From Thuidium tamariscinum (Eukaryota; Streptophyta; Bryopsida; Hypnales; Thuidiaceae): a stretch of DNA of 64,000 bases. The notes beneath the pieces were generated by a model. That model ran no database searches, was not told where the DNA came from, and saw only the letters and a program-made list of their open reading frames with translations. A program made the translations under genes and the position numbers. Of the stretch, positions 173-57,670 are shown one piece after another (within the stretch, counting starts at the first letter, position 1; each line of letters opens with the position of its first letter). The stretch spans positions 9,612,501-9,676,500 of the forward strand of contig OX344758.2 in the NCBI GenBank assembly GCA_947034885.2, written 5' to 3'.

Positions 173-407
173 TATCGCAGTCCGGAAATATCAGGTAAGT
201 AAAATAGGAAGATAGTATATAGAGTAAGCTCAATTTTTCAAAATTTTAGGGTTAGATATGGCGAAAAGAAGATAATTAGGGTCTTCTTCCCTTGGGATCC
301 GTTTGAACCAGATTGACCAAGGTGAATTTCCGGTCTATGGGCATAAGTTTCCGGATCCGGATTCCTCAATATCCGGAACTGAACTTTCCGGAAGACGGAA
401 CTTGAAG

Positions 408-520
408 AGACGGATCCGATATTGTCAAAGACGGATCCGATGTTGTCAAGGACGGATCCGATGTTGTCAAGGACGGATTCGATGTTGTCAAGGACGGATC
501 CGGTATACCTAAAGACGGAT
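408..520 (+). repeat. 21-bp tandem repeat upstream of the A1 gene
   Basis: About five copies of a 21-bp unit, roughly GACGGATCCGATGTTGTCAA, each with the palindrome CGGATCCG, lie 120-230 bp upstream of the TATA box. A2 has about four copies (49262-49355) and A3 about two (54995-55050), so the number varies among otherwise near-identical copies. The position suggests a promoter element, but function is inferred. Confidence 0.8.
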
Positions 521-640
521 CCGAGGTAGTTCCGGATGGTCGGCACCTATGGGTCTATGCCGCCGACCTACGGAAACTAGCGTAACGGCCGGGGAACGTC
601 GCGCCGTTCCAAGGGGAACTGGGAACGCAGGGTACCGACT

Positions 641-650
641 GGTATATAAA
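641..650 (+). promoter_or_regulatory. TATA box of the A1 gene
   Basis: GGTATATAAA lies about 140 bp before the first in-frame ATG (786). It is conserved at 49473-49482 in A2 and, on the minus strand, at 54866-54875 in A3. Transcription would begin near 670-680, inside the pyrimidine-rich sequence that follows. Confidence 0.65.
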
Positions 651-785
651 CCCTTCCTCTCCACTTCATTTTTCCTTTTCGATTTGGCAAATCGAGGTAC
701 AGCTTGTGTGCAGGTTTTGGAGCGCGTATAGAGAGAGAAAGAGTGGTGAGCAGTAGAGATCGGTTCCGGGTTTAGTTCAGGGTCG

Positions 786-1345
786 GTGCCGACCGCACCG
801 ACAAGTTCCGACTCGGGCGGAGAGATGGCAAGTTCCTCCAATCCGAAGCGAGCGGTAGTGACGGCCAAGGCAATTTCGCCAGTCATCCCTTCCGATCCGC
901 AGCATCGGAAGGAGTTAGAAGATGATCTAGTCTTCCTAGGGTGTCATGGGTTGATCCGGCGCCCTTGGAGTGTGAAGAGTGACGAGATAGTACAGGAAAT
1001 CCTCTCGGGAGTTCCGAATCAGTACGAACTCACAGTGAGGGGTAGACCAAGTGCCTGGACGCCAGATATCTGGGTGAATGTATACAGTTTTGATAAAACC
1101 GGATTAGGTCTAGCTCCCCGGACGGACAAGTTTGGTGTTAACAAGTTCCGGAATCCACCCCACCCTAAGGACGGATACTCAGTTCCGGATTGCACCAACG
1201 ACCGGCATAGACGGATGTTGGAATTCTTGATTCCCATCCTCTATCCGGAAAAACCTACCCGTGTCACTGTAACGGTAGCAAACACCATCTTCGGGTGTTT
1301 TGAGAAGCGGATAGTCAACTGGGGTATAGTCCTCCAGTGGGTAGT
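786..1345 (+). pseudogene. A-type element protein, 5' part (gene split by B1)
   Basis: First 186 codons of the A-family gene. The frame starts at ATG 786; a second in-frame ATG at 825 has good surroundings (GAGATGGC) and is an alternative start. The protein is about 45% identical by eye to that of B, sharing GC-GL--PW near residue 50, HPKDGY and DRHRR near 130-145, PEKPTRVT, and ANTIFG. This N-terminal region is an alpha-helical globular domain that faintly recalls the Gag-like 'putative plant transposon protein' domains; that comparison is from memory and weak. B1 inserted within codon 187. Removing B1 and one GTAGT leaves an uninterrupted 678-codon frame, so this copy was intact when hit. 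Function unknown. Confidence 0.85.
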
Positions 1346-1657
1346 TGTGGCAAGACATATTTTTGATCTTTCCATTTAAAGTCAGTATGGAGCGGAAAGT
1401 CGAAAATTTAGCAACCGGATTTGTTCAGGGAACGGGTAAGATCCAGAAGTAGTACCAGATAATGTTGTAGAGACCGGTGGCAGAATAATTCCGGTTTATT
1501 ACGACGGAATACCGGAACGGAAAAATTCCGGACCCTACAGAACGGATTCTATCCGGATTCAGTCCCAGAACGGAACGGATGATTTCCGGACTTGGACCGA
1601 TCGGATGGGAACGGGAACGGATGATCAGGAACGGAAGACCGGATCCATTTCTGGAAA

Positions 1658-1666
1658 GTATATAAG
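1658..1666 (+). promoter_or_regulatory. TATA box of the B1 gene
   Basis: GTATATAAG sits about 355 bp before ATG 2018 and is conserved in B2 (57345-57353, minus strand). The leader between them is GT-rich with TGTGTGTG runs. GGAACGGAT-type motifs crowd the 200 bp upstream. Confidence 0.6.
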
Positions 1667-2017
1667 GCCTGACATTTTCAGTTGGCCCATTTGCTCTCAG
1701 GCGCTTCGTTGTGTGTTTTTCAACCCTCAGCGTTTTCCGCCTTTTCTGTGAGTTGGTTTTGCGCGCGTGTTTGGTGGCGCAATTTTCTGTGACGCGGCTG
1801 TCAGTATTAGTAGCGGGTGTTTTGTCAGAGCGGGCAGTTGTCAGCGGCGCGGGTTTCAGACTGTGCGCTGAGGCGTTGGTGTGTGGAGAGGAGTGTGTGT
1901 GTGTATGTACAGGTGGTTATTACGGGCAGATTACTTTTGTATTTGTGATTGTGAGTGTGTGTGAGGAACGGGACGTGCGGCTAGGAGAGGAGTGAGGTAG
2001 TTTTCCGGATAGTTGCC

Positions 2018-3700
2018 ATGCCACAGCTACGCCGGAAGAGAACCGAGTCCACTACACCCCCACCCTCAGGGATAAAGCTGAAGAAAGTAGTTCCGCTCAT
2101 CCCTTCCACAGAGCCGGAGAAAAGCAACTTGATGGCGGACTTAACCGCAATGGGGTGTCTAGGGTTAGCAGAGATACCCTAGGGATTCAAGGAGGAGCGG
2201 ATGGTGAAGGAGCTGAAGGGCAAGGTGTCGAATCAGTTCGACAACACGGCGCGGGGAATGCCGCACAAATGGACGGAGGCGCACTGGAGGGCCGTATACG
2301 GGTTCAAACACCAGGGGCACGGACCGGCCGGGAGGAAGGTAGACTTCCTCCAAAACAGGTTTCACGGCACCCCTCACCCGAAGGACGGATATCGGGTGAT
2401 GGACTATAACGAAGACAGGCATCGACGCCTGTTGAAATTTCTGCTTCCGGTCTTGCATCCGGAAAAGCCAACCCGGGTGACAATTGGCCTGGCCAACACG
2501 ATCTTCGGTGCCCTGATCGGAGACCGGAAAGTGGACTGGGGCCGGATCATACAGGAGCTGATCACCCGGTTACTGAAGAACCTCGGAGGGAGTAGGGCAA
2601 CTCCGATCTCCCCCTACCTCTTCCACCTCTACCACCATCTACAGCTCCTTTCGGATACGGAAGAGAAGACGTGGCACGCCCAGAAGATAGTCTTGACGTA
2701 CGGGGAGACGTCAACGGATGATGAGGAGAGCTCCGAGTCCGAGACAAAGCGGGAGGACTCAGATAAGGGAGAGGAACCGGAAGTTCCGCTCGTGAAGCGG
2801 CAGAAGACCACACCGCCGAACACGAGGGGATCTCCTCCGGTCCGACACAATCCGGGAACGGAAGGCAGAGCGGGACCATCCGAACTGGGTCAGGCCGAAC
2901 CAGCAGCAGAGGAAACGGATCCCAATGATCCGTTCGTGCAATTGACGGAAATCCTGTGCAACATCCGAGCGGATTGGGAGGTCAAGCGGATCGTCCTGGA
3001 GAACATCGCGGGGATGGTCAATGGCAAACCGGATCATACTCTCCCGATCGTGGTAGGGAATTGCATCGCCTCGCCTGCGGATCTCGCCAAGATGGAGGAG
3101 GAAAACCGGAAACTTCAGGAGGAAGTTGACGGTTTGAAGGCGGAGCTCCTTGTTCTCAGGGACAACGAGGCCGCTACCAAGGAGATGGCGGCAGAGACCG
3201 TCAAATTGGCGGAGCACGTGAAGGCAACATTCGGGGAACCCGGATCGGCTGTCATCCGGGCTCAACTGTTTGACGAAGAAGTGCACAAGGAGAAGAAACT
3301 ATCCGGAAGCCGGATAGTCCGGATTCTGTCCGACTTCTCCGAAAAGGTGGAGACGACTTTGGTGAAGGTTCGGGAGGCGGCCGAACGGATGGAAGACTGT
3401 AGCCGGAGACTGACGGAAATTCCGGTCAGACTCTCCGATCTGTCTCTACCGGATATTTCCGAAGGGTTGCCTCAGAGACCAGGGAAGGACAGGACGCCGC
3501 AATCCAAGAAGTCAGGGCGAGCGTCAACGGGTAACCGGGAGGCAGCAATTCAGTTGTCGGAATCTCCTGCGAGTCCGAATACTGGAGCTCCGGTTGCAAT
3601 AGACGGAGAACGGAATCGGAACCTCACCGAGGTCTTCGAGCAGATCAGTAGGGCGGAAAGCCCGACTATAGGATCTAGGGTAGCAGAGCCGGATACGTAG
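2018..3700 (+). pseudogene. B-type element protein, one nonsense codon
   Basis: A 560-codon frame from ATG 2018 to TAG 3698-3700, broken only by TAG at 2180-2182 (codon 55). B2 has TGG (Trp) there, so the change is G to A. Residues about 28-245 are homologous to the A protein (PHKW, HPKDGY, DRHRR, PEKPTRVT, ANTIFG, LFHLYHH). An acidic Ser/Glu stretch follows, then a coiled coil at about 358-402, then a block shared with A (VIRA-LF, then GS---IL-D) at about 405-445. The tail is Ser/Pro-rich and lacks A's basic end. No catalytic motif, zinc knuckle, protease or polymerase signature is visible. It could be Gag-like or an accessory DNA-binding protein; function unknown. Confidence 0.85.
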
Positions 3701-4965
3701 GTATTAGGACTTTCCTGTTTTTGTAGTTTTTAACTTAGGAACGGATCAGGAGGAAATCCGGTCCGGTTTAGGAACTTGGAGCGGGTTGGAATCCGTTCCG
3801 GTTCAGAAGTAGGTAGGAACGGATCCGCCGAGCGTTAATCGCGGCGGACTTGTATGGCGCTTTTTGCTTTTTGCCCATTATTTAAGTCAGTCCCCTCGCG
3901 GTGGACTGGGAGTCTTTTCTTTTGCATTATCTTTGTGTATTCTATTCCCTCTTGCTTTGCGCGTGTATCTCCCGAGTTTGGCAGGGCGGCGTGACGCGGA
4001 GTTAGGAAGGCGCAAGTGGTTTTGCAGGCGACATTCTCCCTTTGGTGTTTATTTTCCGTGTCTGAGTATATGAGAACGGGTAGATAAGAGTTGGGAGTGT
4101 AATTCTAGTGCCTCAGCGCTTCTAGGACTTAAGATTCCGGGTGAGAAAGCCGTTGTTAGGCTAGACGAGAGGGAGGGATTCCTTAATCGTGCTAGAGCTC
4201 CTGGGTGGGAGACCCAATTGAGTGTCCGATCTCCTGTGAGGTCTCACCGTCTTTGTGGCAAACGGAAGAGTTCCGGTTGACGTTGGAACGGACGGATACA
4301 CTTGTAGCCACTTGGCTCCCCAGGAACGGAAAGTCGTGTCAAAGTCGTTGTAGTATGAGAAGATCGTACGGGGGATCTCTGTGTGACCTACAGTCCGGAT
4401 CTTTGTCTGGATTGTTGTGAGGGATCAAACCGGATCTGAAGTATTTTTAGAATTAACAAGTAGAAAGTGGGTCTTCAGCCACTGTAAGTCACGGAAGGAG
4501 CGGTGGGCCTACCGCTCACAAAATCAAGCGGCGACCCCTCTGATGGTAAAACAGAGGCAAAACTAAACCTTATTGAGGAACGGATGTGGACGGATCATCC
4601 GGAACGGATTGATCCAGAGAGGAAACCAGGAGCGGAACTCGTTAGGGAGCGGATCCGTTGCAGTCTGACGGAACGGATAAAATCCGGGAAACCGGAAAAG
4701 TGAAGGAACGGATCCGTTCCGGACCAGATTGCTAGAATATCAGTTTTGAACGGGATAACGGATTGTCGTCTCGGGTTGTTTGTGTATTTCCGGTTCTAGA
4801 TCTAGAACCGGATTATAGAGTTTTGGGAGCTGTCCTATCTTAATCGCTTAACTAAGCCAGATACTTCACAGAATCTCGCGGGTTCGATCTTTAGAGTCAC
4901 TTAGTTATACTCTACAGTGATTTTTGTGAGTATAATAGGGAATTTACTTACCCTGTGTTGCGACA
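3701..4965 (+). other. B1 3' noncoding region, with block shared with A and C
   Basis: About 1.26 kb without coding signal. It holds many GGAACGGAT and CGGATCCG motifs. At 4335-4420 is a block shared with A and C: GTCGTTGTAGT, then GTGACCTAC, then GTTGTGAGG. At 4494-4570 a hairpin-prone stretch ending in GGTAAAACAG matches A at 7295-7355. The right end carries CTTACCCTGTGTTGCGACA, whose reverse complement resembles the left end of A. B2 has the same region with H-c inserted. Confidence 0.6.
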
Positions 4966-4970
4966 GTAGT

Positions 4971-6447
4971 TAACCGGCTAGCCGAGCATGTGGGACGGGA
5001 GAAGACCAACACTATCAGCGGCTATCTCTTCCACCTGTACCACCACTATGATGTGCTGAGTGGCCCAGAACTCCTCCGCTATGAGATGGGAGTTCAGATC
5101 CTCAAGTACGGCTTGACGGATGAGTTGGAGAAGGAGCCGGAGGACCCGGAAGACGAGCGGATGGACGAGGACCCGGAAGAGCAGAAGCCGGTCAGCCAGC
5201 CGGAACGGAAGCCGGAACGGAAGAAGTCCACAACGCCCGATAAGAGAGGACACCCACACCCGGATCCACCCGGATCAACCCTGGGGAAGAAGAAGCGGAA
5301 CCACTTCGACACCATCATCCGTCACGCCATGATGGCGCACGCAGACAACAACCAATATGAGGCGATACTCGAGCAGATTGTCACGAAGCTGGGCGCGGTG
5401 AAGATCGAAGACATTTCGGAAATCCTCGACCGTCTTCCGACTCAAGAGGTGTTGCGGAAGAAAGACGAAGAGATCCGGAAGTGGGAAGACGTGGCCCGGA
5501 ATCAGACGGATCAAATCCGACAGGCGGAAGATCTGGCCCGGATAGCTGAAGAGGGACGACGGAAGGCGGAAGAGGAGCGGAATGGACTCCAGAGCACGGT
5601 GACGTACCTGGAGAATGATCTCAGTGTCGCCAACGGGAAGATCGTGGAGGCCACCTCCTTGGTTCAGAACCTGCAGGAGTTGGTGGCCCAGCTGGCGGAT
5701 ACGGTGATCAGAGCGAAACTGTTTTCCGCCCGGCTGATGACGGAAGGGCACGTCACCGGATCGAAAGTCATCACCATCTTGGTGGATTACCAGGCCAAGA
5801 TGGAAGGGGTACTGAAGGAGATGAGGGCCTTAATTGGGGCTCTCAATCCGGACTTGGGGGAAGGACTGTCGAGCTTGCTCAACCAGCAGGTGTTTACGGA
5901 CTTCAGCCCCGGTGCGCAAGGACGGATGTCGACGGATCGGAAACTACTCAGAAACTCGCCGGTCGTGAAGAACCTCAGCGAGCTCGGATCGGATCCGAAT
6001 GCGGCCGGACCGTCCAACACACCTACGGATCCGCAAGAGAAAAGGGCATCACCACGGCTCGACCTGGAGATCCAGATGAAGGCCCTAGCGAATCCGGCCA
6101 AGGAGAATCCGGAGAAGTTCGCCCACATAAACGAGCCAGACAGGGTTCCGGGTAAGGATCCGCGCAGCAAGACAGTCATCTTGGATGACTCGGACAAGGA
6201 AGATAATCCGCCCCTCACCATCCATGATGAAGTTAGGGGTCAGGGCGGATTTCAGGGAGTAGAGCATTCAGAAAGCTCCGAGGCGGATTCGGAGGAGACT
6301 TCGACGGAAGACAGCGGAACGCCACCGGTTCCGATTCAGAAGAGGCAGACCCGATCCGCCACCAAGAAGGCTCCCCCTCCCAAGGCAGCAACGCGAAGAA
6401 GTTCAGTTCCGCCCGTGGGCGCGACATCGAAGCGGGCGCGTAAGTAG
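4971..6447 (+). pseudogene. A-type element protein, 3' part (gene split by B1)
   Basis: Continuation of the gene starting at 786. Joined after codon 186 it gives 678 residues ending in KRARK. In order: the end of the globular domain (LFHLYHH near residue 206), an acidic Pro/Glu linker (about 235-270), a Lys/Arg-rich stretch, a coiled coil (about 345-430, rich in Glu/Arg/Ala), the block shared with B (VIRAKLF then GSKVITIL) near 432-455, a low-complexity region, a Ser/Glu acidic patch (about 619-635) and a strongly basic tail (about 644-678) that could be a nuclear localisation or DNA-binding tail. No stop or frameshift occurs in this segment, making A1 the best-preserved A copy apart from the B1 insertion. 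Confidence 0.85.
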
Positions 6448-7681
6448 GATAGGTTTGAGTAGTTAGGTAGGCTTTTGAGATTTTGGGACGGAAGTTTCCT
6501 GGACGGATTTCCCGGATGTGGGCCCCGATCCGGAACTTTAGGGACAACTGACCGAACCTTTCCGAATAATCCGGTTGGGCTCCGATTGGTTGTTTCGGAT
6601 TTTCTTTTGCCTTATTGGCATTCCGTTTCTGTTTTTAGGCTTTGACTTTCATTGTTTTTTTTGGCTTTTAAGGGGCAGGCAAGTTAGTTGGCCTGTCATT
6701 CCCTCCTAGTGCATATTCTATTGTATTTTCATTCCCTTCTTTAATTTGAGCCGGCGGATGGACATTCTAGCTCTGACTTGCGTTTGAGTCTCTTCTTGGT
6801 GTGTTCATTGAAGTGTTGAGAGGCAAGAGGGAAGGGTGAGGAGGAATCCGGATTCTGAGGCACTTGAAATCCGAACTGAGTGACCAACTTCCGAGGGTTA
6901 GGATCTTGAATCGTGAGTTTGAGCGTGGAGCCTTTAATTCACCGAAACGGTGATCCGGTGTGAGTCCAGGAGTGACGAGGAGGAGGTTCTGGAACCGCAG
7001 GGGCGGATTCGTGCGGAGTTAAGCAGCCGCCATAGGAAAGTTCTGTCCATCGGAAGGTCTGCCAACCACTGAGTCGATCCAAAGAACTAGGAAAATACGT
7101 CCTTTTGGGTCTAGGGGTTTTCGAATCTGTCGTTGTAGTAAGGGCAAGTGAATTAGTCCTGAGTGACCTGCTAACCGGATTGGCCTAGAGCTATCCGGGA
7201 AGTTGTGAGGATCCGAATCCGGCCCTAATACAACATCGGATATATTTTGGTATTTTCATGTATTTTTGTTTGAGAGAAGAGAGCGTGAGGTGTACGAGTG
7301 GTAAGTCCCTACCCCTCTAAAGATCAAGAGAGGACTCCCTGAGGGTAAAACAGGGGTATCAAAAACCAATTATTGAGTGACGGAACCGGATTCCGGATTG
7401 AGACGGATCCGGGTGAAGGAGAAATCCGGATCCGAGAAAGGAATCCGGTCATAGTTGAGAGACGGATTCGGAAAGAAAAGACGGATCCTGAAAAACAGTC
7501 TGGAAGATAAGTTGGTATTCCGGATTAAGAGTAGTAACTTGGGGTGTTTTGATCCGAGAAACTTAGAAACCGGAAAACGCAACTATTAGTATCGTCTGGA
7601 ATCTCCTGGGACGATATTCCATGTCATATTATCACGTTTGGGTGTGATAAAGGTGCTTTCTGCTAGACTGCGCGTACGACA
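6448..7681 (+). other. A1 3' noncoding region, with conserved block
   Basis: About 1.23 kb without coding signal, closely matched in A2 (55466-56699) and A3 (51465-52692, reversed). The block at 7130-7210 (GTCGTTGTAGT, GTGACCTGCTA, AGCTATCC, GTTGTGAGG) is shared with B and C. Near 7605 the sequence CTCCTGGGACGATATT resembles the CT-GTGGGAACGAT motif of C (21450-21465), a type of sequence often found near the 3' end of plant LTRs. The last 70 bp hold an inverted repeat (TATTATCACG, CGTGTGATAA-like) before GCGTACGACA. Confidence 0.6.
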
Positions 7682-7686
7682 TCAGT

Positions 7687-8995: not shown

Positions 8996-9003
8996 ATTAG
9001 GTT

Positions 9004-9364: not shown

Positions 9365-9372
9365 ATTAGGTT

Positions 9373-19480: not shown

Positions 19481-19639
19481 AAGCAGAAAGAAGTTGACGT
19501 CCGCGCCTTGTTATTTTTCGCGTCCCCGCCCTGTCTCGCGTCCCCGCCTTGTTGATTTGCATTCGCGCCCGTGGTCGCTAGGTGGCATGAACTTAAATCC
19601 ACGTGGATTTTTTATTACCTTTTAAAAAAGTCAGCTATG

Positions 19640-21505: not shown

Positions 21506-21512
21506 TGACTTT

Positions 21513-34308: not shown

Positions 34309-35150
34309 GGGTGATTGCAAGAAACACTTGTACTATTTGTTGCGTTTTGTCACACCTTAGATTCCGATTTTTTTTTAGCCATAAATTTTGTGTTTTAGCT
34401 TCAAATGATTCAAAATTTATTGGGAAGCTACTCATGGCTATTATGTATCTATAATGAATTTTGGAGATTTTTAAAAATAACTTATTATTTTTAAATAGCC
34501 CCAAAAATTTCTCACAATACTTGATTTAGGGGTTTCTAGCACCATTTACCTCCCCCCAAAACGAATTTTGACCTAAAATTTAGAGAAGATGGTCTCTTAG
34601 TATATTTATAGCTACTGTCTAAATGAATTTTCAAAATAGACTTATTTTTATGTATTGTAGAAGTCCACAAAAAGAGCTTCATTTTGCATTTTTTTCCAAA
34701 GGTATAAAACATTATTTTAGTGAGTTTTTTGGTCAAATCTCATCTCCGCAAAGTTTTTCCAAATGATGTATTTTTATGTATTTTAAGAAAAAATGCAAAA
34801 TGAAGCTTTCTTTGTAGACTTCTACAACACATTAAAATAAGTATTTTAAAAATTCATTTAGATAGTAGCTATAAGTCTACTAGGAGACCATCCTCTCTAA
34901 ATTTTAGGTCAAAATTCGTTTTTTTTGCAGGTAAATGGTGCTAAAAACCCCTAAATCAAGTATTGTGAGAAATTTTTGGGGCTATTTAAAAATAATAAAT
35001 TATTTTTGAAAAATCTCCAAAATTCATTATAGATTTATAATAGCTATGAGTAGCTTCCCTACCAATTTTAAGTCATTTGGGGAAAAAATAAAAAGTTATG
35101 GCCAAAAACAAATAAAAAACTAGGGTGTGACAAAAGGCTTTAAGTGTTTC
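34309..35150. mobile_element. F2, F-family foldback inside the hAT element
   Basis: It starts GGGTGATTGCAAGAAACAC, the F-family terminus. The sequence from there to about 34735 is repeated in inverted orientation at about 34790-35150 (for example GCTACTCATGGCTATTAT against ATAGCTATGAGTAGC), so it is a palindromic version of one F half. The right end keeps AAGTGTTTC but lacks GCAATCACCC, so it is truncated or diverged and no duplication can be called. Confidence 0.72.
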
Positions 35151-38816: not shown

Positions 38817-38820
38817 TGTA

Positions 38821-39378: not shown

Positions 39379-39658
39379 CATTAGAAGAAATTTGAGGGCA
39401 TTAGAAGACTGCGGGTTCCCAAACTACGGGAACGCAGTTTTTGCCACGTGAACTGAAATCTGACGTGGTTGAGAGAGTGCCAGGTCATTAAAAAGAAAAT
39501 TGAATTTTTTTGGGCTTCTTTTCATATTTCAAGACCCCCCAATTTTAATTTTTTTTGGGGGGGGGTTAATGCCGCCTTGACAGTGGCCAGCAGTTAGGGA
39601 ACAGTTTCGGGGAACAACCCCGAAACAGCCCTTTAGGGGCCTTAAATTTCTTCTAATG
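39379..39658. mobile_element. H-b, CATTAG element without target duplication
   Basis: It runs from CATTAGAAGAAATTTGAGGG to CTTAAATTTCTTCTAATG (280 bp). The interior carries GCGGGTTCCC, GGGAACGCAG and CCCGAAACAGCC as in H-c. The flanks TTGTGT and ACTTAG share nothing, in agreement with the empty-site evidence for H-c. Confidence 0.85.
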
Positions 39659-40674: not shown

Positions 40675-40678
40675 TTCA

Positions 40679-41073: not shown

Positions 41074-41075
41074 TA

Positions 41076-41499: not shown

Positions 41500-43140
41500 A
41501 GCAATATTAATCATAGGTACCAAATTTTTTTTAAATAAAATTTTTAAGACATATGTAACCATAAGATCTAATTGTAAGTTGATTTGAGAAGATGTGGAAA
41601 AAATTTCAGAAATTTTCACCATGTAGTTTGCAAGATATTAGTATTTGAATTGACAAAAATCCTTTTCTTGGCCTTGCAAAAAAACAAGCAATTGGAATTC
41701 AAAAGATCACAATTATATGAAAAAATATCCAAAATGGTGGTTACTCTTTGGATCCATACTTTAAAAAAAGTTAGCTACATGCTTGATAATTTTCAAGTTA
41801 TTTGGCATTGTATAATATATAGGAAAAAAATAGTAAGTAGAAAAAAATAGAAAATGATTTGAATATTAAATTATTAATAAATTATTTATAACATTGAAAA
41901 ATGCCAATTCCAATGGTTGTTATATCATAACAACAATCTACACCCTAAGTTTTAACTTTTTTTCAAAAAGATTGAAAATTGAGCTAAATAAAGAACTTCA
42001 AAGTTTATTCTACTATAAAGATTTGATAATTATCCACAAATTAAAACTCTTCACAACTTTTGACTTATTTATCAAAATGGAATGATTGAAAGCTTTTTGC
42101 ATATATATAAATAAATCCAACAAAACCAATTTCAAACTTTTGTTTCGGAAAAAAAATGATTTTTTTTTATTTGCCCAAACTGTTCGTTTATTGCATGATA
42201 TGAGGTAGAATCAACATATCGTGCAATAACTTTTATTCAAATAGTCAAAAGTTACAAAATTTGTTAGGACCGGATTGCTAATTTAGCAACATAGTGATTT
42301 TGGACAGGTTTATGTGATTCAAGATATCCATATTTTGGGCCCAAATTTTTATAGAAGGTAGGGACAAGGAATATCTTTTATCTATATTAAAACCAAGACA
42401 TTTGAAAATATTAAACAAAAGTTATGACCTAATATGTTTGTTTGTTTGTTTTATAAATGGGCAATTTAAGACTTCAGGGAGATTGAAAAAAATCACTTTT
42501 ATCAAAAACAAAAATATGAAACTAGTTTTCTTCACTTATGTATGCATAGAAAGCTTTGAATCATTCCATTTTGATCAATGAATCAAAAGTTATGAGAAGT
42601 TTTTATTTATGTGTAGTTATACATTTTCCACTCTAAAATAAACTTTAAAGTCCTTTATTTACTCAATTTTCAATATTTTTTGAAAAAATTAAAATCATAA
42701 GATATATTTTTTTTTATTTCAACATTCCAACCATTGGAATTGATATTTTTCAATTCCATAAATAAATTCTTAACAATGTGGTATTTTGGATCATTTCAGC
42801 TACTTCTTTCTCCTTATTATTTTTTTCCTAAATGTTGTACAATTCTAAATAGTTTGAAAAATTTAAGATAAGTACTCTACTTGGTCTAAGAAATGAATCC
42901 AAAGAAGCAGTTTCATTTTTGATCATTTTTCATATAATTGTTGCTTTCAGAAATGTAGTTGCCTTATTTTCTACAAGGTGAAAAAAAATATTTTTGAGCA
43001 TTCAAATACTAATATCTTGCAATCTATACAATGAAAAACTTTTAAAATTTCCCTCCATGTTCTCAAACCAATTTACTAAAAGATCCTATGGTTACAAATC
43101 TCAAAGAAATGTTTTTAAAGAAAATATTGGTATGGGTATT
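41500..43140. repeat. Foldback of ~1.6 kb with arms of ~600 bp
   Basis: The left arm (about 41500-42180) is repeated in inverted orientation at about 42440-43140. Examples: GTAACCATAAGATC against GATCCTATGGTTAC; TTTGCAAGATATTAG against CTAATATCTTGCAA; CCAATTCCAATGGTTG against CAACCATTGGAATTG. The loop is about 260 bp. Small frames in the arms are not conserved as protein. The arm's TTTCACCATGTAG section resembles the 297-bp duplication in the hAT element. Confidence 0.8.
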
Positions 43141-45681: not shown

Positions 45682-45730
45682 CAAAAGCAGAAAGAAGTTG
45701 ACGTCCGTGTTTTTTTTTTAAGGTTTGCAC

Positions 45731-46076: not shown

Positions 46077-46580
46077 ACAACTGTCGCAACACAGGGTAAG
46101 TAAATTCCCCATTATACTCACAAAAATCACTGTAGAGTATAACTAAGTGACTCTAAAGATCGAACCCACGAGATTCTGTGAAGTATCGGGCTTAGTTGAG
46201 CGATTAAGATAGGACAGCTCCCAAAACTCTATAATCCGGTTCTAGATCTAGAACCGGAAACACACAAACAACCCGAGACAACAACCCGTTATCCCGTTCA
46301 AAAACTGATATTCTAGCAATCTGGTCCGGAACGGATCCGTTCCCTCACTTTTCCGGTTTCCCGGATTTTATCCGTTCCGTCAGACTGCAACGGATCCGCT
46401 CCCTAACGGGTTCCGCTCCTGGTTTCCTCTCTGGACCAATCCGTTCCGGATGATCCGTCCACACCCGTTCCTCAATCCGGTTTAGCTTTGCCTCTGTTTT
46501 ACCATCAGAGGGGTCGCCGCTTGATTTTGTGAGCGGTAGGCCCACCGCTCCTTCCATGACTTATAGTGGCTGAAGACCCA

Positions 46581-46867
46581 CATTAGATGAAATCTGAGGG
46601 CATTAGGAGACCGTTTCGGGTCTGTTCCCGAAACGGCTCCCAATGCCGCAGATCCTCATCAGGCCGATTTTTATGGAAAAAAAAAAAAATTTCTTGGGTC
46701 CTGAAATATGAAAATAAGTCCAAAAAAAATTTTTTTTTTGAAAAAAAAAAAAAAAATATTACGTGGCAGTGTCCCGACCACGTAGGATTCGGGTTCACAG
46801 GGCAAAAACTGCGTTCCTGCAGTCCGGGAACCCGCAGTCTCCTAATGCCCTCAAATTTCTTCTAATG
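46581..46867. mobile_element. H-c, CATTAG element inserted in B2 without target duplication
   Basis: It runs from CATTAGATGAAATCTGAGGG to TCAAATTTCTTCTAATG (287 bp), with inverted ends of about 35 bp. B1 supplies the empty site: the reverse complement of 4465-4480 reads GACCCACTTTCTAC, and B2 reads GACCCA, then the element, then CTTTCTAC. Nothing is duplicated or lost. The interior has A- and T-homopolymers and GGGAACCCGCAG palindromes. Confidence 0.92.
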
Positions 46868-47633
46868 CTTTCTACCCATTAATTCTAAAATTACTTCAGA
46901 TCCGGTTTGATCCCTCACAACAGTCCAGACAAAGATCCGGATTGTAGGTCACACAGAGATCCCCCGTACGATCTTTTCATACTACAACGACTTTGACACT
47001 ACTTTCCGTTCCTGGGGAGTCAGGTGGCTACAAGTGTATCCATCCGTTCCAACGTCAACCAGAACTCTTCCGTTTGCCACAAAGACGGTGAGACCTCACA
47101 GGAGATCGGACACTCAACTGGGTTTCCCACCCAGGAGCTCTAGCACGATTAAGGAATCCCTCCCTTTCGCCTAGCCTAACAACGGCTTTCTCACCCGGAA
47201 TCTTAAGTCCTAGAAGCGCTGAGGTACTAGAATTACACTCCCAACTCTTCTCTACCCGTTCTCATATACTCAGACACGGAAAATAAGCACCAAAGGGAGA
47301 ATGTCGCCTACAAAACCACTTGCGCCTTCCTAACTCCGTGTCACGCCGCCCTGCCAAACTCGGGAGATACACGCGCAAAGCAAGAGAGAATAAAATACAC
47401 AAAGATAATGCAAAGGAAAAGACTCCCAGTCCACCGCGAGGGGACTGACTTAAATAATGGGCAAAAAGCAAAAAGCGCCATACAAGTCCGCCGCGATTAA
47501 CGCTCGGCGGATCCGTTCCTACCTACTTCTGAACCGGAACGGATTCCAACCCGCTCCAAGTTCCTAATCCGGACCGGATTATTTCCTGATCCGTTCCTAA
47601 GTCAAAAATTAAAAATACAGGAAATCCTAATAC

Positions 47634-49026
47634 CTATGTATCCGGCTCTGCTACCCTAGATCCTATAGTCGGGCTTTTCGCCCTACTGATCTGCTCGAAG
47701 ACCTCGGTGAGGTTCCGATTCCGTTCTCCGTCTGTTGCAACCGGAGCTCCAGTAACCGGACTCGCAGGAGACTCTGACAACTGAATTGCCGCCTCTCGGT
47801 TGCCCGTTGACGCTCGCCCTGACTTCTTGGATTGCGGCGTCCTGTCCTTCCTTGGCCTCTGAGGCAACCCTTCAGAAAGATCCGGAAGAGATAGATCGGA
47901 GAGTCTGACTGGAATTTCCGTCAGTCTCCGGCTACAATCTTCCATCCGTTCGGCCGCCTCCCGAACCTTCACCAGAGTCGTCTCCACCTTCTCGGAGAAG
48001 TCGGACAGAATCCGGACTATCCGGCTTCCGGATAGTTTCTTCTCTTTGTGCACTTCTTCGTCAAACAGTTGAGCCCGGATGACAGCCGATCCGGATTCCC
48101 CGAATGTTGCCTTCACGTGCTCCGCCAATTTGACGGTCTCCGCCGCCATCTCCTTGGTAGCGGCCTCGTTGTCCCTAAGAACAAGGAGCTCCGCCTTCAA
48201 CCGGTCAACTTCCTCCTGAAGTTTCCGGTTTCCTCCTCCTGCTTGGTGAGATCTGCAGGCGAGGCGATGCAATTCCCTACCACGGTCGGGAGAGTATGAT
48301 CCGGTTTGCCATTGACCATCCCTGCGATGTTCTCCAGGACGATCCGCTTGACCTCCCAATCCGCTCGGATGTTGCACAGGATTTCCGTCAATTGCACGAA
48401 CGGATCACTGGGATCCGTTTCCTCTGTTGCTGGTTCGGCTTGACCTGGTTCGGATGGTCCCGCTCTGCCTTCCGTTCCCGGATTGTGTCGGACCGGAGGA
48501 GATCCCCTCGTGTTCGGCGGTGTGGTCTTCTGCCGCTTCACGAGCGGAACTTCCAGTTCCTCTTCCTTATCTGAGTCCTCCCGCTCTGTCTCGGACTCGG
48601 AGCTCTCCTCATCATCCGTTGACGTCTCCCCGTACGTCAAGACTATCTTCTGGGCGTGCCACGTCTTCTCTTCCGTATCCGAAAGGAGTTGCAGATGGTG
48701 GTAGAGGTGGAAGAGGTAGGGGGAGATCGGAGTTGCCCTACTCCCTCCGAGGTTCTTCAGTAACCGGGTGATCAGCTCCTGTATGATCCGGCCCCAGTCC
48801 ACTTTCCGGTCTCCGATCAGGGCACCGAAGATCGTGTTGGCCAGGCCAATTGTCACCCGGGTTGGCTTTTCCGGATGCAAGACCGGCAGCAGAAACTTCA
48901 ACAAGCGTCGATGCCTGTCTTCGTTACAGTCCATCACCCGATATCCGTCCTTCGGGTGAGGGGTGCCGTGAAACCTGTTTTGGAGGAAGTCTACCTTCCT
49001 CCCGGTCGGTCCGTGCCCCTGGTGTT
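47634..49026 (-). pseudogene. B-type element protein in B2, 3' part, frameshifted
   Basis: Minus-strand continuation of the gene whose 5' part is at 56700-56993. It matches B1 from KHQGHGP onward, with the globular domain (HPKDGY, ANTIFG, LFHLYHH), acidic region, coiled coil and Ser/Pro tail. A 1-base deletion near 48233 (GAAACC for GAAAACC) shifts the frame inside the coiled coil, so it now reads as two overlapping frames, 49021-48197 and 48377-47634. A2 inserted in the codon region just upstream of KHQG. Confidence 0.85.
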
Positions 49027-49617
49027 TGTCGCAGTCCGGAAATATCAGGTAAGTAAAATAGGAAGATAGTATATAGAGTAAGCTCAATTTTTCAAAATTT
49101 TAGGGTTAGATATGGCGAAAAGAAGATAATTAGGGTCTTCTTCCCTTGGGATCCGTTTGAACCGGATTGACCAAGGTGAATTTCCGGTCTATGGGCATAA
49201 GTTTCCGGATCCGGATTCCTCAATATCCGGAACGGAACTTTTCGGAAGACGGAACTTGGAGAGACGGATCCGATATTGTCAAGACGGATCCGATATTGTC
49301 AAAGACGGATCGGATGTTGTCAAGGACGGATCCGGTATACCTAAAGACGGATCCGAGGTAGTTCCGGGCGGTCGGCACCTACGGGTCTATGCCGCCGACC
49401 TACGGAAACTAGCGTAACGGCCGGGGAATGTCGCGCCGTTCCGAGGGGAACTGAGAACGCAGGGTACCGACTGGTATATAAACCCCTCCTCTCCACTTCA
49501 TTTTTCCTTTTCGATTTGGCAAATCGAGGTACGGCTTGTGTGCAGGTTTTGGAGCGCGTATAGAGAGAGAAAGAGTGGTGAGCAGTAGAGATCGGTTTCG
49601 GGTTTAGTTCAGGGTCG

Positions 49618-51464
49618 GTGCCGACCGCACCGACAAGTTCCGACTCGGGCGGAGAGATGGCGAGTTCCTCCAATCCGAAGCGAGCGGTAGTGACGGCCAA
49701 GGCAATTTCGCCAGTCATCCCTTCCGATCCACAGCATCGGAAGGAGTTAGAAGATGATCTAGTCTTCCTAGGGTGTCATGGGTTGATCCGGCGCCCTTGG
49801 AGTGTGAAGAGTGACGAGATAGTACAGGAAATCCTCTCGGGAGTTCCGAATCAGTACGAACTCACAGTGAGGGGTAGACCGAGTGCTTGGACGCCGGATA
49901 TCTGGGCGAATGTATACGGTTTTGATAAAACCGAATTAGGTCTAGCTCCCCGGACGGACAAGTTTGGTGTTAACAAGTTCTGGAATCCGCCCCACCCTAA
50001 GGACGGATACTCAGTTCCGGATTGCACCAACGACCGGCATAGACGGATGTTGGAATTCTTGATTCCCATCCTCTATCCGGAAAAACCTACCCGTGTCACC
50101 GTAACGGTAGCAAACACCATCTTCGGGTGTTTTGAGAAGCGGATAGTCAACTGGGGTATAGTCCTCCAGTGGGTAGTTAACCGGCTAGCCGAGCATGTGG
50201 GACGGGAGAAGACCAATACTATCAGCGGCTATCTCTTCCACCTGTACCACCACTATGATGTGCTGAGTGGCCCGGAACTCCTCCGCTATGAGATGGGAGT
50301 TCAGATCCTCAAGTACAGCTTGACGGATGAGTTGGAGAAGGAGCTGGAGGACCCGGAAGACGAGCGGATGGACGAGGACCCAGAAGAGCAGAAGCCGGTC
50401 AGCCAGCCGGAACGGAAGAAGTCCACAACGCCGGATAAGAGAGGACACCCAGACCCGGATCCACCCAGATCAACCCTGGGGAAGAAGAAGCGGAACCACT
50501 TCGACACCATCATCCGTCACGCCATGATGGCGCACGCAGACAACAACCAATATGAGGCGATACTCGAGCAGATTGTCACGAAGTTGGGCGCGGTGAAGAT
50601 CGAAGACATTTCGGAAATCCTCGACCGTCTTCCGACTCAAGAGGTGTTGCGGAAGAAAGACGAAGAGATCCGGAAGTGGGAGGACGTGGCCCGGAATCAG
50701 ACGGATCAAATCCGACAGGCGGAAGATCTGGCCCGGATAGCTGAAGAGGGACGACGGAAGGCGGAAGAGGAGCGGAATGGACTCCAGAGCACGGTGACGT
50801 ACCTGGAGAATGATCTCAGTGTCGCCAACGGGAAGATCGTGGAGGCCACCTCCTTGGTTCGGAACCTGTAGGAGTTGGTGGCCCAGCCGGCGGATACGGT
50901 GATCAAAGCGAAATTGTTTTCCGCTCGGCTGATGACGGAAGGGCACGTCACCGGATCGAAAGTCATCACCATCTTGGTGGATTATCAGGCCAAGATGGAA
51001 GGGGTGCTGAAGGAGATGAGGGCCTTAATAGGGGCTCTCAATCCGGAGTTGGGGGAAGGACTGTCGAGCTTGCTCAACCAGCAGGTGTTTACGGACTTCA
51101 GCCCCGGTGCGCAAGGACGGATGTCGACGAATCGAAAACTACTCGGAAACTCGTCGGTCGTGAAGAACCTCGGCGAGCTCGGATCGGATCCGAATGCGGC
51201 CGGACCGTCCAACACACCTACGGATCCGCAAGAGAAGAGGGCATTACCACGGCTCGACCTGGAGATCCGGATGAAGGCCCTGGCGAATCCGGCCAGGGAG
51301 AATCCGGAGAAGTTCGCCCACATGAACGAGCCAGATAGGGTTCCGGGTAAGGATCCGCGCAGCAAGACAGTCATCTTGGATGACTCGGACAGGGAAGATA
51401 ATCCGCCCCTCACCATCCGTGATGAAGTTAGGGGGCAGGGCGGATTTCAGGGAGTAGAGCATTC
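49618..51464 (+). pseudogene. A-type element protein in A2, 5' part, one nonsense codon
   Basis: Uninterrupted from ATG 49618 to TAG at 50869-50871 (A1 has CAG), then open again to the A3 insertion at 51464. It spans the junction that B1 disrupts in A1 (TGGGTAGTTAACCGG at 50169), proving the two A1 halves belong together. It is 12 residues shorter than A1 in the acidic linker, because a KPERKPERK-type repeat is contracted. The domain layout is otherwise as in A1; the rest of the gene is at 55288. Confidence 0.87.
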
Positions 51465-52692
51465 TGTCGTACGCGCAGTCTAGCAGAAAGCACCTTTATC
51501 ACACCCAAACGTGATAATATGACACGGAATATCGTCCCAGGAGATTCCAGACGTTACTAATAGTTGCGTTTTCCGGTTTCTAGGTTTCTCGGATCAAAAC
51601 ACCCCAAGTTACTACTCTTAATCCGGAATACCAACTTATCTTCCAGACTGTTTTTCAGGATCCGTCTTTTCTTTCCGAATCTGTCTCTCCACTATTACCG
51701 GATTCCTTTCTCAGATCCGGATTTCACCCGGATCCGTCCCAATCCGGAATCTGGTTCCGTCACTCAATAATTGGTTTTTGATACCCCTGTTTTACCCTCA
51801 GGGAGTCCTCTCTTGATCTTTAGAGGGGTAGGGACTTACCACTCGTACACCTCACGCTCTCTTCTCTCAAACAAAAATACATGAAAATACCAAAGTATAT
51901 CCAATGTTGTATTAGGGCCGGATTCGGATCCTCACAACTTCCCGGATAGCTCTAGGCCAATCCGGTTAGCAGGTCACTCAGGACTAATTCACTTGCCCTT
52001 ACTACAACGACAGATTCGAAAACCCCTAGACCCGAAAGGACGTATTTTCCTAGTTCTTCGGATCGACTCAGTGGTTGGCAGACCTTCCGATGGACAGAAC
52101 TTTCCTATGGCGGCTGCTTAACTCCGCACGAATCCGCCCCTGCGGTTCCGGAACCTCCTCCTCGTCACTCCTGGACTCACACCGGATCACCGCTCCGGTG
52201 AATTAAAGGTTCCACGCTCAAACTCACGATTCAAGATCCTAACCCTCGGAAGTTGGTCACTCAGTTTGGATTTCAAGTGCCTCAGAATCCGGATTCCTCC
52301 TCACCCTTCCCTCTTGCCTCTCAACACTTCAATGAACACATCAAGAAGAGACTCAAACGCAAGTCAGAGCTAGAATGTCCATCCGCCGGCTCAAATTAAA
52401 GAAGGGAATGAAAATACAGTAGAATATGCACTAGGAGGGAATGACAGGCCAACTAACTTGCCTGCCCCTTAAAAGCCAAAATAACAATGAAAGTCAAAGC
52501 CTAAAAACAGAAACGGAATGCCAACAAGGCAAAAGAAAATCCGAAACAACCAATCGGAGCCCAACCGGATTATCCGGAAAGGTTCGGTCAGTTGTCCCTA
52601 AAGTTCCGGATCGGGGCCCACATCCGGGAAATCCATCCAGGAAACTTCCGTCCCAAAATCTCAAAAGCCTACCTAACTACTCAAACCTTATC

Positions 52693-54730
52693 CTACTTAC
52701 GCGCCCGCTTCGATGTCGTGCCCACGGGCGGAACTGAACTTCTTCGCGTTGCTGCCTTGGGAGGGGGGGCCTTCTTGGTGGCGGATCGGGTCTGCCTCTT
52801 CTGAATCGGAACCGGTGGCGTTCCGCTGTCTTCCGTCGAAGTCTCCTCCGAATCCGCCTCGGAGCTTTCTGAATGCTCTACTCCCTGAAATCCGCCCTGC
52901 CCCCTAACTTCATCATGGATGGTGAGGGGCGGATTATCTTCCCTGTCCGAGTCATCCAAGATGACTGTCTTGCTGCGCGGATCCTTACCCGGAACCCTAT
53001 CTGGCTCGTTCATGTGGGCGAACTTCTCCGGATTCTCCCTGGCCGGATTCGCCAGGGCCTTCATCCGGATCTCCAGGTCGAGCCGTGGTAATGCCCTCTT
53101 CTCTTGCGGATCCGTAGGTGTGTTGGACGGTCCGGCCGCATTCGGATCCAATCCGAGCTCGCCGAGGTTCTTCACAACCGGCGAGTTTCCGAGTAGTTTT
53201 CGATTCATCGACATCCGTCCTTGCGCACCGGGGCTGAAGTCCGTAAACACCTGCTGGTTGAGCAAGCTCGACAGTCCTTCCCCCAACTCCGGATTGAGAG
53301 CCCCTATTAAGGCCCTCATCTCCTTCAGCACCCCTTCCATCTTGGCCTGATAATCCACCAAGATGGTGATGACTTTCGATCAGGTGACGTGCCCTTCCGT
53401 CATCAGCCGGGCGGAAAACAGTTTTGCTCTGATCACCGTATCCGCCGGTTGGGCCACCAACTCTTGCAGGTTCCGGACCAAGGAGGTGGCCTCCACGGTC
53501 TTCCCGTTGGCGACACTGAGATCACTCTCCAGGTACGTCACCGTGCTCTGGAGTCCATTCCGCTCCTCTTCCGCCTTCCGTCGTCCCTCTTCAGCTATCC
53601 GGGCCAGATCTTCCGCCTGCCGGATTTTATCCGTCTGATTCCGGGCCACGTCCTCCCACTTCCGGATCTCTTCGTCTTTCTTCCGCAACACCTCTTGAGT
53701 CGGACGACGGTCGAGGATTTCCGAAATGTCTTCGATCTTCACCGCGCCCAGCTTTCGTGACAATCTGCTCGAGTATCGCCTCATATTGGTTGTTGTCTGC
53801 GTGCGCCATCATGGCGTGACGGATGATGGTGTCGAAGTGGTTCCGCTTCTTCTTCCCCAGGGTTGATCCGGGTGGATCCGGGTCTGGGTGTCCTCTCTTA
53901 TCCGGCGTTGTGGACTTCTTCCATTCCGGCTTCCGTTCCGGCTGGCTGACCGGCTTCTACTCTTCTGGGTCCTCGTCCATCCGCTCGTCTTCCGGGTCCT
54001 CCGGCTCCTTCTCCAACTCATCCGTCAAGCCATACTTGAGGATCTGAACTCCCATCTCATAGCGGAGGAGTTCCGGGCCACTCAGTACATCATGGTGGTG
54101 GTACAGGTGGAAGAGATAGCCGCTGATAGTGTTGGTCTTCTCCCGTCCCACATGCTCGGCTAGCCGGTTAACTACCCACTGGAGGACTATACCCCAGTTG
54201 ACTATCCGCTTCTCAAAACACCCGAAGATGGTGTTTGCTACCGTTACGGTGACACGGGTAGGTTTTTCCGGATAGAGGATGGGAATCAAGAATTCCAACA
54301 TCCGTCTATGCCGGTCGTTGGTGCAATCCGGAACTGAGTATCCGTCCTTAGGGTGGGGCGGATTCCGGAACTTGTTAACACCGAACTTGTCCGTCCGGGG
54401 AGCTAGACCTAATCCGGTTTTATCAAAACCGTATACATTCGCCCAGATATCCGGCGTCCAGGCACTCGGTCTACCCCTCACTGTGAGTTCGTACTGATTC
54501 GGAACTCCCGAGAGGATTTCCTGTACTATCTCGTCACTCTTCACACTCCAAGGGCGCCGGATCAACCCATGACACCCTAGGAAGACTAGATCGTCTTCTA
54601 ACTCCTTCCGATGCTGCGGATCGGAAGGGATGACTGGCGAAATTGCCTTGGCCGTCACTACCGCTCGCTTCAGATTGGAGGAACTCGCCATCTCTCCGCC
54701 CGAGTCGGAACTTGTTGGTGCGGTCGGCAC
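52693..54730 (-). pseudogene. A-type element protein in A3, multiply broken
   Basis: Minus-strand gene from ATG at 54730 (alternative at 54691) to the stop at 52693. TAG at 53957-53959 replaces CAG in the acidic linker. A 1-base insertion near 53754 (GAAAGC for GAAGC) shifts the frame before the coiled coil. TGA at about 53380 replaces GGA after the shared VIRAKLF block. The remaining sequence is A-type to the KRARK end. It retains the full KPERKPERK-like region, so it is not derived from A2. Confidence 0.87.
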
Positions 54731-54865
54731 CGACCCTGAACTAAACCCGGAACCGATCTCTACTGCTCACCACTCTTTCTCTCTCTATACGCGCTCAAAA
54801 ACCTGCACACAAGCCGTACCTCGATTTGCCAAATCGGAAAGGAAAAATGAAGTGGAGAGGAAGGG

Positions 54866-54875
54866 TTTATATACC
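54866..54875 (-). promoter_or_regulatory. TATA box of the A3 gene
   Basis: TTTATATACC on the plus strand, i.e. GGTATATAAA on the minus strand, the same position relative to the gene as in A1 and A2. Upstream the 21-bp repeat is reduced to about two units. Confidence 0.6.
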
Positions 54876-55287
54876 AGTCGGTACCCTGCGTTCTCAGTTC
54901 CCCTCGGAACGGCGCAACGTTCCCCGGCCGTTACGCTAGTTTCCGTAGGTCGGCGGCATAGACCCGTAGGTGCCGACCATCCGGAACTACCTCGGATCCG
55001 TCTTTAGGTATACCGGATCCGTTCTTGACAACATCGGATCCGTCTCTCCAAGTTCCATCATCTAGGAAGTTCCGTTCCGGATATTGAGGAATCCGGATCC
55101 GGAAACTTATGCCCATAGACCGGAAATTCACCTTGGTCAATCCGGTTCAAACGGACCCCAAGGGAAGAAGACACTAATTATCTTCTTTTCGCCATATCTA
55201 ACCCTAAAATTTTGAAAAATTGAGCTTACTCTATATACTATCTTCCTTTTTTGTACTTACCTAATATTTCCGGACTACGACACATTC

Positions 55288-55465
55288 AGAAAGCTCCGAG
55301 GCGGATTCGGAGGAGACTTCGACGGAAGACAGCGGAACGCCACCGGTTCCGATTCAGAAGAGGCAAACCCAATCCGCCACCAAGAAGGCCCCCCCTCCCA
55401 AGGCAGCAACGCGAAGAAGTTCAGTTCCGCCCGTGGGCGCGACATCGAAGCGGGCGCGTAAGTAG
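55288..55465 (+). pseudogene. A-type element protein in A2, 3' end
   Basis: The last 59 or so codons of the A2 gene, after the A3 insertion. It holds the Ser/Glu acidic patch, then the Lys/Arg-rich tail ending KRARK and TAG at 55463-55465. It joins in frame to 51464 once A3 and one CATTC are removed. Confidence 0.85.
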
Positions 55466-56699
55466 AATAGGTTTGAGTAGTTAGGTAGGCTTTTGAGATT
55501 TTGGGACGGAAGTTTCCTGGACGGATTTCCCGGATGTGGGCCCCGATCCGGAACTTTAGGGACAACTGACCGAACCTTTCCGGATAATCCGGTTGGGCTC
55601 CGATTGGTTGTTTCGGATTTTCGTTTGCCTTGTTGGCATTCCGTTTCTGTTTTTAGGCTTTGACTTTCATTGTTTTTTTTGGCTTTTAAGGGGCAGGCAA
55701 GTTAGTTGGCCTGTCATTCCCTCCTAGTGCATATTCTATTGTATTTTCATTCCCTTCTTTAATTTGAGCCGACGAATGGACATTCTAGCTCTGACTTGTG
55801 TTTGAGTCTCTTCTTGGTGTGTTCATTGAAGTGTTGAGAGGCAAGAGGGAAGGGTGAGGAGGAATCCGGATTCTGAGGCACTTGAAATCCGAACTGAGTG
55901 ACCAACTTCCGAGGGTTAGGATCTTGAATCGTGAGTTTGAGCGTAGAGCCTTTAATTCACCGAAACGGTGATCCGGTGTGAGTCCAGGAGTGACGAGGAG
56001 GAGGTTCCGGAACCGCAGGGGCGGATTCGTGCGGAGTTAAGCAGCCGCCATAGGAAAGTTCTGTCCATCAGAAGGTCTGCCAACCACTGAGTCGATCCGA
56101 AGAACTAGGAAAATACGTCCTTTCGGGTCTAGGGGTTTTCAAATCTGTCGTTGTAGTAAGGGCAAGTGAATTAGTCCTGAGTGACCTGCTAACCGGATTG
56201 GCCTAGAGCTATCCGGGAAGTTGTGAGGATCCGAATCCGGCCCTAATACAACATCGGATATATTTTGGTATTTTCATGTATTTTTGTTTGAGAGAAGAGA
56301 GCGTGAGGTGTACGAGTGGTAAGTCCCTACCCCTCTAAAGATCAAGAGAGGACTCCCTGAGGGTAAAACAGGGGTATCAAAAACCAATTATTGAGTGACG
56401 GAACCGGATTCCGGATTGGGACGGATCCGGGTGAAGGAGAAATCCGGATCCGAGAAAGGAATCCGGTCATAGTTGAGAGACGGATTCGGAAAGAAAAGAT
56501 GGATCCTGAAAAACAGTCTGGAAGATAAGTTGGTATTCCGGATTAAGAGTAGTAACTTGGGGTGTTTTGATCCGAGAAACCGAAAAACCGAAAAACGCAA
56601 CTATTAGTAACGTCTGGAATCTCCTGGGACGATATTCCGTGTCATATTATCACGTTTGGGTGTGATAAAGGTGCTTTCTGCTAGACTGCGCGTACGACA
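55466..56699 (+). other. A2 3' noncoding region
   Basis: Closely matches 6448-7681 of A1. The conserved block (GTCGTTGTAGT, GTGACCTGCTAACC, GTTGTGAGG) is at about 56148-56227. Confidence 0.6.
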
Positions 56700-56993
56700 G
56701 TGTTTGAACCCGTATACGGCCCTCCAGTGCGCCTCCGTCCATTTGTGCGGCATTCCCCGTGCCGTGTTGTCGAACTGATTCGACACCTTGCCCTTCAGCT
56801 CCTTCACCATCCGCTCCTCCTTGAATCCCCAGGGTATCTCTGCTAACCCTAGACACCCCATTGCGGTTAAGTCCGCCATCAAGTTGCTTTTCTCCGGCTC
56901 TGTGGAAGGGATGATCGGAACTACTTTCTTCAGCTTTATCCCTGAGGGTGGGGGTGTAGTGGACTCGGTTCTCTTCCGGCGTAGCTGCGGCAT
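56700..56993 (-). pseudogene. B-type element protein in B2, 5' part
   Basis: The first 97 or so codons of the B2 gene from ATG at 56993 (minus strand) to the A2 insertion. It has TGG at the codon where B1 has TAG, so this segment is the less damaged version. It continues at 49026-47634. Confidence 0.85.
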
Positions 56994-57344
56994 GGCAACT
57001 ATCCGGAAAACTACCTCACTTCTCTCCTAGCCGCACGTCCCGTTCCTCACACACACTCACAACACAAATACAAAAGTAATCCGCCCGTAATAACCACCTG
57101 CACATACACACACACACACTCCTCCCACACACCAGCGCCTCAGCGCACAGTCTGAAACCCGCGCTGCTGACAACTGCCCGCTCTGACAAAACACCCGCTG
57201 CTAACACTGACAGCCGCGTCACAGAAAAGTGCGCCACCAAACACGCGCGGAAAACCAACTCATAGAAAAGGCGGAAAACGCTGAGGTTTGAAAAACACAC
57301 AACGAAGCGCCTGAGAGCAAATGGGCCAACTGAAAATGTCAGGC

Positions 57345-57353
57345 CTTATATAC
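57345..57353 (-). promoter_or_regulatory. TATA box of the B2 gene
   Basis: CTTATATAC on the plus strand (GTATATAAG on the minus strand), about 355 bp before ATG 56993, as in B1. Confidence 0.6.
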
Positions 57354-57670
57354 TTTCCAGAAATGGATCTGGTCTTCCGTTCCTGATCATCCGTTCCCGT
57401 TCCCATCTGATCGGTCCAAGTCCGGAAATCATCCGTTCCGTTCTGGGACTGAATCCGGATAGAATCCGTTTTGTAGGGTCCAGAATTTTTCCGTTTCGGT
57501 ATTCCGTCATAATAAACCGGAATTATTCTGCCACCGGTCTCTACAACATTATCGGGTACTACTCCTGGATCTTACCCGTTCCCTAAGCAAATCCGGTTGC
57601 TAAATTTTCAACTTTCTGCTCCATACTGACTTTAAATGGAAAGATCAAAAATATGTCTTGCTACAACAAC

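Follow-up and report, generated by a model that had tools for sequence, protein, structure and literature searches.

Single-gene repeats of the moss Thuidium tamariscinum as very probable solo long terminal repeats of Ty3/gypsy elements

Introduction

Genes inside long terminal repeats (LTRs) were evident, in the literature searched and as far as its sources were available, in retroviruses only, chiefly in mouse mammary tumour virus (MMTV); doubtful candidates proved to be something else. MMTV is a vertebrate betaretrovirus, which carries the superantigen gene sag in U3. Solo LTRs are normally treated as noncoding remains and masked. In plants, extra open frames are common in the OTA group of Ty3/gypsy elements, as are LTRs reaching approx. 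5 kb, according to the available part of a survey, which also places Retrosat2 in the chromovirus clade Tekay and assigns tRNA-Asp primers to 6% of the surveyed plant elements (PMC6317226). Tat elements of mosses are described, in the accessible sections of another source, as encoding an additional RNase H in a frame that precedes gag (PMC10508981). Here we analysed a stretch of 64,000 nucleotides (‘the window’) from the moss Thuidium tamariscinum (assembly GCA_947034885.2, contig OX344758.2, positions 9,612,501 to 9,676,500 of the forward strand), which holds five copies of single-gene repeat units belonging to two families, A and B. These units are very probably solo LTRs of related plant Ty3/gypsy families in which the LTR itself carries a conserved gene. 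The class of solo LTRs is known; the variant found here is unusual in that an accessory gene lies within the LTR and, in family B, is under selection.

Family B units as paired LTRs of gag-pol elements

With the left window end as query, a search of the genome (363 Mb, 19 contigs) located B copies in direct orientation 9,523 bp apart on contig C9 and 9,522 bp apart on contig C3. The 5.9-kb interior between such paired units encodes gag and pol. In the gag product (535 aa), zinc knuckles accompany a Retrotrans_gag domain; the pol product (1,367 aa at locus L010, 1,342 aa at L009) shows the Pfam order RVT_1, RNase H, Integrase_H2C2 and rve. At E ≤ 0.01, Pfam reported no protease domain in the B interior and, in the L010 pol, no chromodomain of the chromovirus kind after the integrase. 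By Pfam alone (E ≤ 0.01 for pol), the L010 pol contains a single RNase H region and the LTR gene none, so that the additional RNase H typical of Tat elements was not seen. Among 116 candidate interiors, 33 of which were scored, 13 matched over the full 5,903 bp at 96–100% identity and one more, on contig C11, at 89%.

The primer-binding site (PBS) of family B lies 11 bases past the LTR and is, over 19 nt, the complement of the host tRNA-Asp(GTC) at its 3′ end, CCA included. This tRNA 3′ end occurs six times in the genome, and all three loci examined were identified by ARAGORN as tRNA-Asp(GTC). Matches to the same tRNA span 20 nt in family C and 19 nt in family D, two related families described below, and 10 nt in the A copy at L020. 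A purine tract, read by eye, precedes the 3′ LTRs: GAGGAAGGGG before B and GAAAAAGGGG before A.

In the C9 element, CCATC is present on both outer sides, the two LTRs differ at 2 of 3,621 positions, and an identical open gene of 560 codons was found in both. At the outer ends of ten further B elements, a 5-bp duplication was seen in eight. One of these eight is a tandem element of the form LTR-interior-LTR-interior-LTR (G000:C2:8438338-8461001) with one outer duplication, CTGGG; tandem LTR-interior arrays are known in plants, as the available part of a report describes (PMC11899658).

Because the same sequences form the paired LTRs of gag-pol elements, we read the units as LTRs. The original prediction, made from the letters of the window, had offered two readings, one of them giant solo LTRs bearing an internal gene; this one is borne out by the direct B pairs, which enclose gag-pol and a PBS. 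Its statement that the window copies encode neither reverse transcriptase (RT) nor transposase likewise holds, gag-pol being located in interiors elsewhere in the genome. The other reading was a new TG/CA-ended transposon class, examined here as a DNA transposon whose 3.6-kb unit would move alone with the internal gene as its transposase. The constant ends and the exact 5-bp duplications around single-gene units agree with it, but the same units bound gag-pol elements as terminal repeats, together with a PBS and a purine tract, the gene product matches neither a transposase nor an RNase H of Pfam above chance, and the unit ends match each other at few bases only. The LTR-gag-pol-LTR elements, an outcome named beforehand as deciding against it, refute such a transposon for family B, and we give it practically no credence overall.

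Lone B copies in the genome

Ten lone B copies, read at both ends, all had the same termini; nine were flanked by an exact 5-bp duplication and the tenth by one with a single mismatch. From 544 candidates, 40 B copies were scored, 39 of which align over the entire 1–3620 and one over 3–3620, which confirms that the ends first proposed are the true ends. A plant-type P450 is presumably encoded near the B copy at L013.

The LTR gene gave 1,694 candidate matches, and the best 78, i.e. those closest to the open query, were scored. Fourteen of these 78 abut a found interior and 64 do not; 59 are stop-free (46 of them beside no found interior) and 19 carry a stop. At most 64, and at most 46 of the stop-free ones, are solo copies in this set of 78, interiors having been scored for only some candidates. 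The preponderance of copies beside no found interior (64 of the best 78) might suggest that the units are non-autonomous LTR elements in their own right, of the TR-GAG or LARD type, paired around gag-pol by chance. However, an excess of solo LTRs over full elements is ordinary, and nine of the 11 elements examined share one interior and have one outer duplication. No direct repeat of at least 200 bp was present inside the unit, shorter internal LTRs not having been searched for. We consider such independent elements exceedingly improbable and retain the interpretation as solo LTRs.

Nested copies in the window

The five copies form two nests, and each is flanked by an exact 5-bp target duplication. 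In the left nest, A1 (173–7681) is split by B1 (1346–4965); in the right nest, B2 (46082–57665, minus strand) is split by A2 (49027–56699), which is itself split by A3 (51465–55282, minus strand). The features are as follows.

168–172 and 7682–7686: duplication TCAGT of A1
173–1345, plus strand: 5′ part of the A1 solo LTR (family A), as far as the B1 insertion, starting TATCGC
643–649, plus strand: TATATAA of A1 (LTR position 471), upstream of the A1 gene
825–1345, resuming at 4971–6447, plus strand: A1 LTR gene, interrupted by B1 after its N-terminal part
1341–1345 and 4966–4970: duplication GTAGT of B1
1346–4965, plus strand: B1 solo LTR (family B, 3,620 bp) inside the A1 gene, with GTAGT duplicated
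1659–1665, plus strand: TATATAA of B1 (LTR position 314), putative LTR promoter
2018–3700, plus strand: B1 LTR gene, 561 codons including the stop, with one in-frame TAG near the start
3701–4965, plus strand: noncoding LTR tail of B1
4971–7681, plus strand: A1 solo LTR, 3′ part, followed by TCAGT at 7682–7686
46077–46081 and 57666–57670: duplication ACAAC of B2
46082–49021, minus strand: B2 solo LTR, 3′ part, containing an insert that resembles a miniature inverted-repeat transposable element (MITE)
49022–49026 and 56700–56704: duplication GTGTT of A2
49027–51464, plus strand: A2 solo LTR, 5′ part, within the B2 gene; its own gene starts at 49657 and has an early stop at 50869–50871
51460–51464 and 55283–55287: duplication CATTC of A3
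51465–55282, minus strand: A3 solo LTR (3,818 bp) within A2; gene start at 54691 (minus strand), frame broken
55288–56699, plus strand: A2 solo LTR, 3′ part
56705–57665, minus strand: B2 solo LTR, 5′ part, with ACAAC duplicated at both B2 ends

All five duplications by which the copies had been delimited to the base are thus present, and the chance of five matching random 5-mers is approx. 1e-15. The net lengths are 3,884 bp (A1), 3,850 bp (A2), 3,818 bp (A3), 3,620 bp (B1) and 3,906 bp (B2). The ends had been given as TGTCG and CGACA; the right end CGACA is found in all copies, but B copies start with TGTGG or TGTAG and A1 with TATCG. Window copies are 91–98% alike in DNA within families. Between A and B, DNA matches are short only, and the encoded proteins are 33–44% identical over their aligned parts.

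In the MITE-like insert of B2 (46585–46867, approx. 283 bp), TGAGGGCATTAGGAGAC forms the 17-bp terminal inverted repeats (at 46595 and 46837), and a relative with 75% identity lies at 39379–39556. Elsewhere in the window, 19603–24067 holds a further Ty3/gypsy element, which has RT, RNase H and a chromodomain and is possibly of the Tcn1 type; chromodomain elements of this kind are known from mosses and fungi, according to the part of the source available (PMC2864245). Taken with the P450 near L013, this element suggests a moss as host. Large imperfect inverted repeats of foldback-like appearance occupy 34342–35138 and 41518–43132 (807 bp at 83% and 656 bp at 73% identity to their own complement).

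Related families A, C and D

An A LTR at L018 (3,842 bp, 97% identical to A3) stands immediately upstream of a gag-like interior, and at L019, L025, L027 and L030 the end of pol is followed by the start of an A LTR. Pieces of A LTRs at L020 and L021 have 1,129 bp in common at 98.8% identity. The interiors associated with A are about 69–72% identical to the B interior. Contig C11 (17.5 Mb) contains many of the more diverged A copies and several partial B interiors, a pattern that might be expected for a low-recombination or sex chromosome.

Family C (L032) was read on its 5′ side only, where an LTR end with a gene product 41% identical to that of B lies just upstream of PBS and gag; no 3′ LTR of this family was found. 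The LTR gene has a further relative at L035. Family D, seen in two copies (L022/L023 and L028/L029) with an interior related to that of B, has paired direct 2,155-bp LTRs with TG/CA ends that are 99.86% alike, one of them at L022:2041-4195, and the duplications GGCAT and CATGG. D is young, its LTRs hold no recognisable gene, and it offers a natural comparison for the role of the LTR gene.

The gene within the LTR

The LTRs of A, B and C each bear a related gene on the sense strand. In family B, it lies at LTR positions 673 to 2355 (560 codons), with TATATAA at position 314 upstream and a noncoding tail of 1.27 kb downstream. A3 and L018 likewise have TATATAA, at LTR positions 410 and 429, respectively. 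Among nine insertions, variants in the B gene comprised 75 synonymous, 60 nonsynonymous and two stop changes, against a neutral expectation of 62.2, 106.7 and 5.6, respectively, from the spectrum of 1,469 noncoding LTR sites. The noncoding-corrected N/S is 0.47 of neutral (p = 1e-5), which shows purifying selection on the B gene. Selection on the source elements is probably understated, because solo copies mutate freely after insertion. The raw pN/pS of the LTR gene is 0.26, compared with 0.21 for gag and 0.38 for pol, the latter two from one pair each.

Homologues numbered 57 with a single-sequence query, at 30–59% identity and many spanning most of the query, and 107 with a profile; none is named beyond ‘hypothetical protein’. 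The LTR gene product and its homologues fall into no Pfam family. In an alignment of 44 members, 11 positions are invariant, every one within the first 205 residues.

Alternatively, the frame could be a functionless relic, captured and passively carried, and the stops in 19 of the best 78 B copies, the broken frames of the four A copies that were followed and the nearly identical, gene-less LTRs of family D are in agreement with this. The depressed N/S of the B gene, its raw pN/pS beside those of gag and pol, the 59 stop-free copies among the best 78 and the homologues, many of which span most of the query, argue against it, and we regard a relic as improbable; a conserved gene carried by the LTR is the reading that we prefer.

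AlphaFold2 predicted, with confidence, a mostly helical N-domain (approx. residues 21–230), followed by an acidic linker of low confidence (232–299) and a long helical hairpin resembling a coiled coil (305–466). Matches in PDB cover mainly the coiled coil and barely test the N-domain. From the model, the product is more likely to be an accessory protein that forms oligomers than a catalytic enzyme. By analogy with accessory proteins of other plant elements, our best guess, a tentative one, is that the LTR protein may work in trans to promote expression or to counter silencing.

The tails of B and C are 74.5% identical over approx. 600 bp, which exceeds the longer coding matches (65–68%); the B1 tail is about three quarters identical to family C at LTR positions 2624–3228 and 3462–3621. 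Two short hairpins in the B1 tail (window 4498–4517 and 4537–4557) show, by eye, paired base changes between B and C. The sequence of the second can be recognised in A, but folding of A did not form it. As a candidate RNA element, the hairpins might serve dimerisation or packaging; given the few sequences they are a lead.

Discussion

Several points weigh against reading the units as solo LTRs with a conserved gene. A and C elements were read only in part, and the duplication around A was seen in the solo copies of the window alone. Selection was tested in B only, and the gene frame is broken in each of the four A copies in which it was traced (A2, A3, L018 and L036). In two of the ten further B elements, LTR ends were absent from the predicted outer positions, and the open share among all gene copies will be lower than among the 78 best. 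Family D has LTRs without a recognisable LTR gene, so the gene is dispensable for some relatives or supplied in trans. Finally, the LTR promoter, the transcript ends and translation are inferred from sequence.

A full B element consists of LTR (3.6 kb), tRNA-Asp PBS, gag, pol, purine tract and LTR. On the reading as gene-bearing LTRs, the TATA box at LTR position 314 would start the genomic RNA, whose open frames would begin with the LTR gene, ahead of gag. Reverse transcription would renew the gene in both LTRs, and recombination between LTRs would remove gag-pol and leave a stand-alone unit of promoter, gene and tail. A more speculative extension, which we think unlikely, is that an LTR-borne gene turns the formation of solo LTRs into dispersal, with dozens of promoter-equipped copies from which intact elements, and relatives that lack the gene (D, for example), would receive the protein in trans.

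The solo LTRs described here are complete units of one gene each. In family B, the selection signal of that gene is similar in size to that of gag, which offers a testable case of a selected gene in the most persistent part of an element. As a caution, apparent single-gene transposons or big lineage-specific gene families annotated in plants can be solo LTRs.

Comparison with known systems

By its features, as distinct from a phylogenetic tree, family B resembles the OTA group (Athila and Tat, the plant non-chromovirus Ty3/gypsy elements) in the order RT-RNase H-integrase, the lack of a chromodomain and the 5-bp duplications; the OTA descriptions, in the part of the survey available, mention no frame inside the LTR, unlike what is found here (PMC6317226). 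Compared by description with Tat elements, whose account was likewise available in part, the frame here stands apart in having no RNase H match in Pfam and in lying inside the LTR, a position that the account neither states nor denies for the Tat B frame. Retrosat2, RIRE3 and RIRE8 are also plant elements with LTRs of approx. 3 kb and an extra frame, ORF0, upstream of gag-pol; in the accessible part of the source, and thus by description only, ORF0 is placed upstream of the gag-pol ORF and is not an LTR gene (PMC3485330).

The literature searched held no description of a conserved gene inside a plant LTR; this search was partial, and an earlier description is possible. The original prediction that no named element has exactly this structure is therefore fair for plants within that literature, but a gene within an LTR has its precedent in MMTV. 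As far as the sources available describe it, sag is the nearest precedent: a protein gene inside the LTR, and so carried by both LTRs and by any solo LTR. The gene here follows the TATA box and would hence belong to R/U5, and the likeness is one of layout, with no sequence relationship claimed. That layout was found in family B, where the C9 element carries its open gene wholly inside both LTRs.

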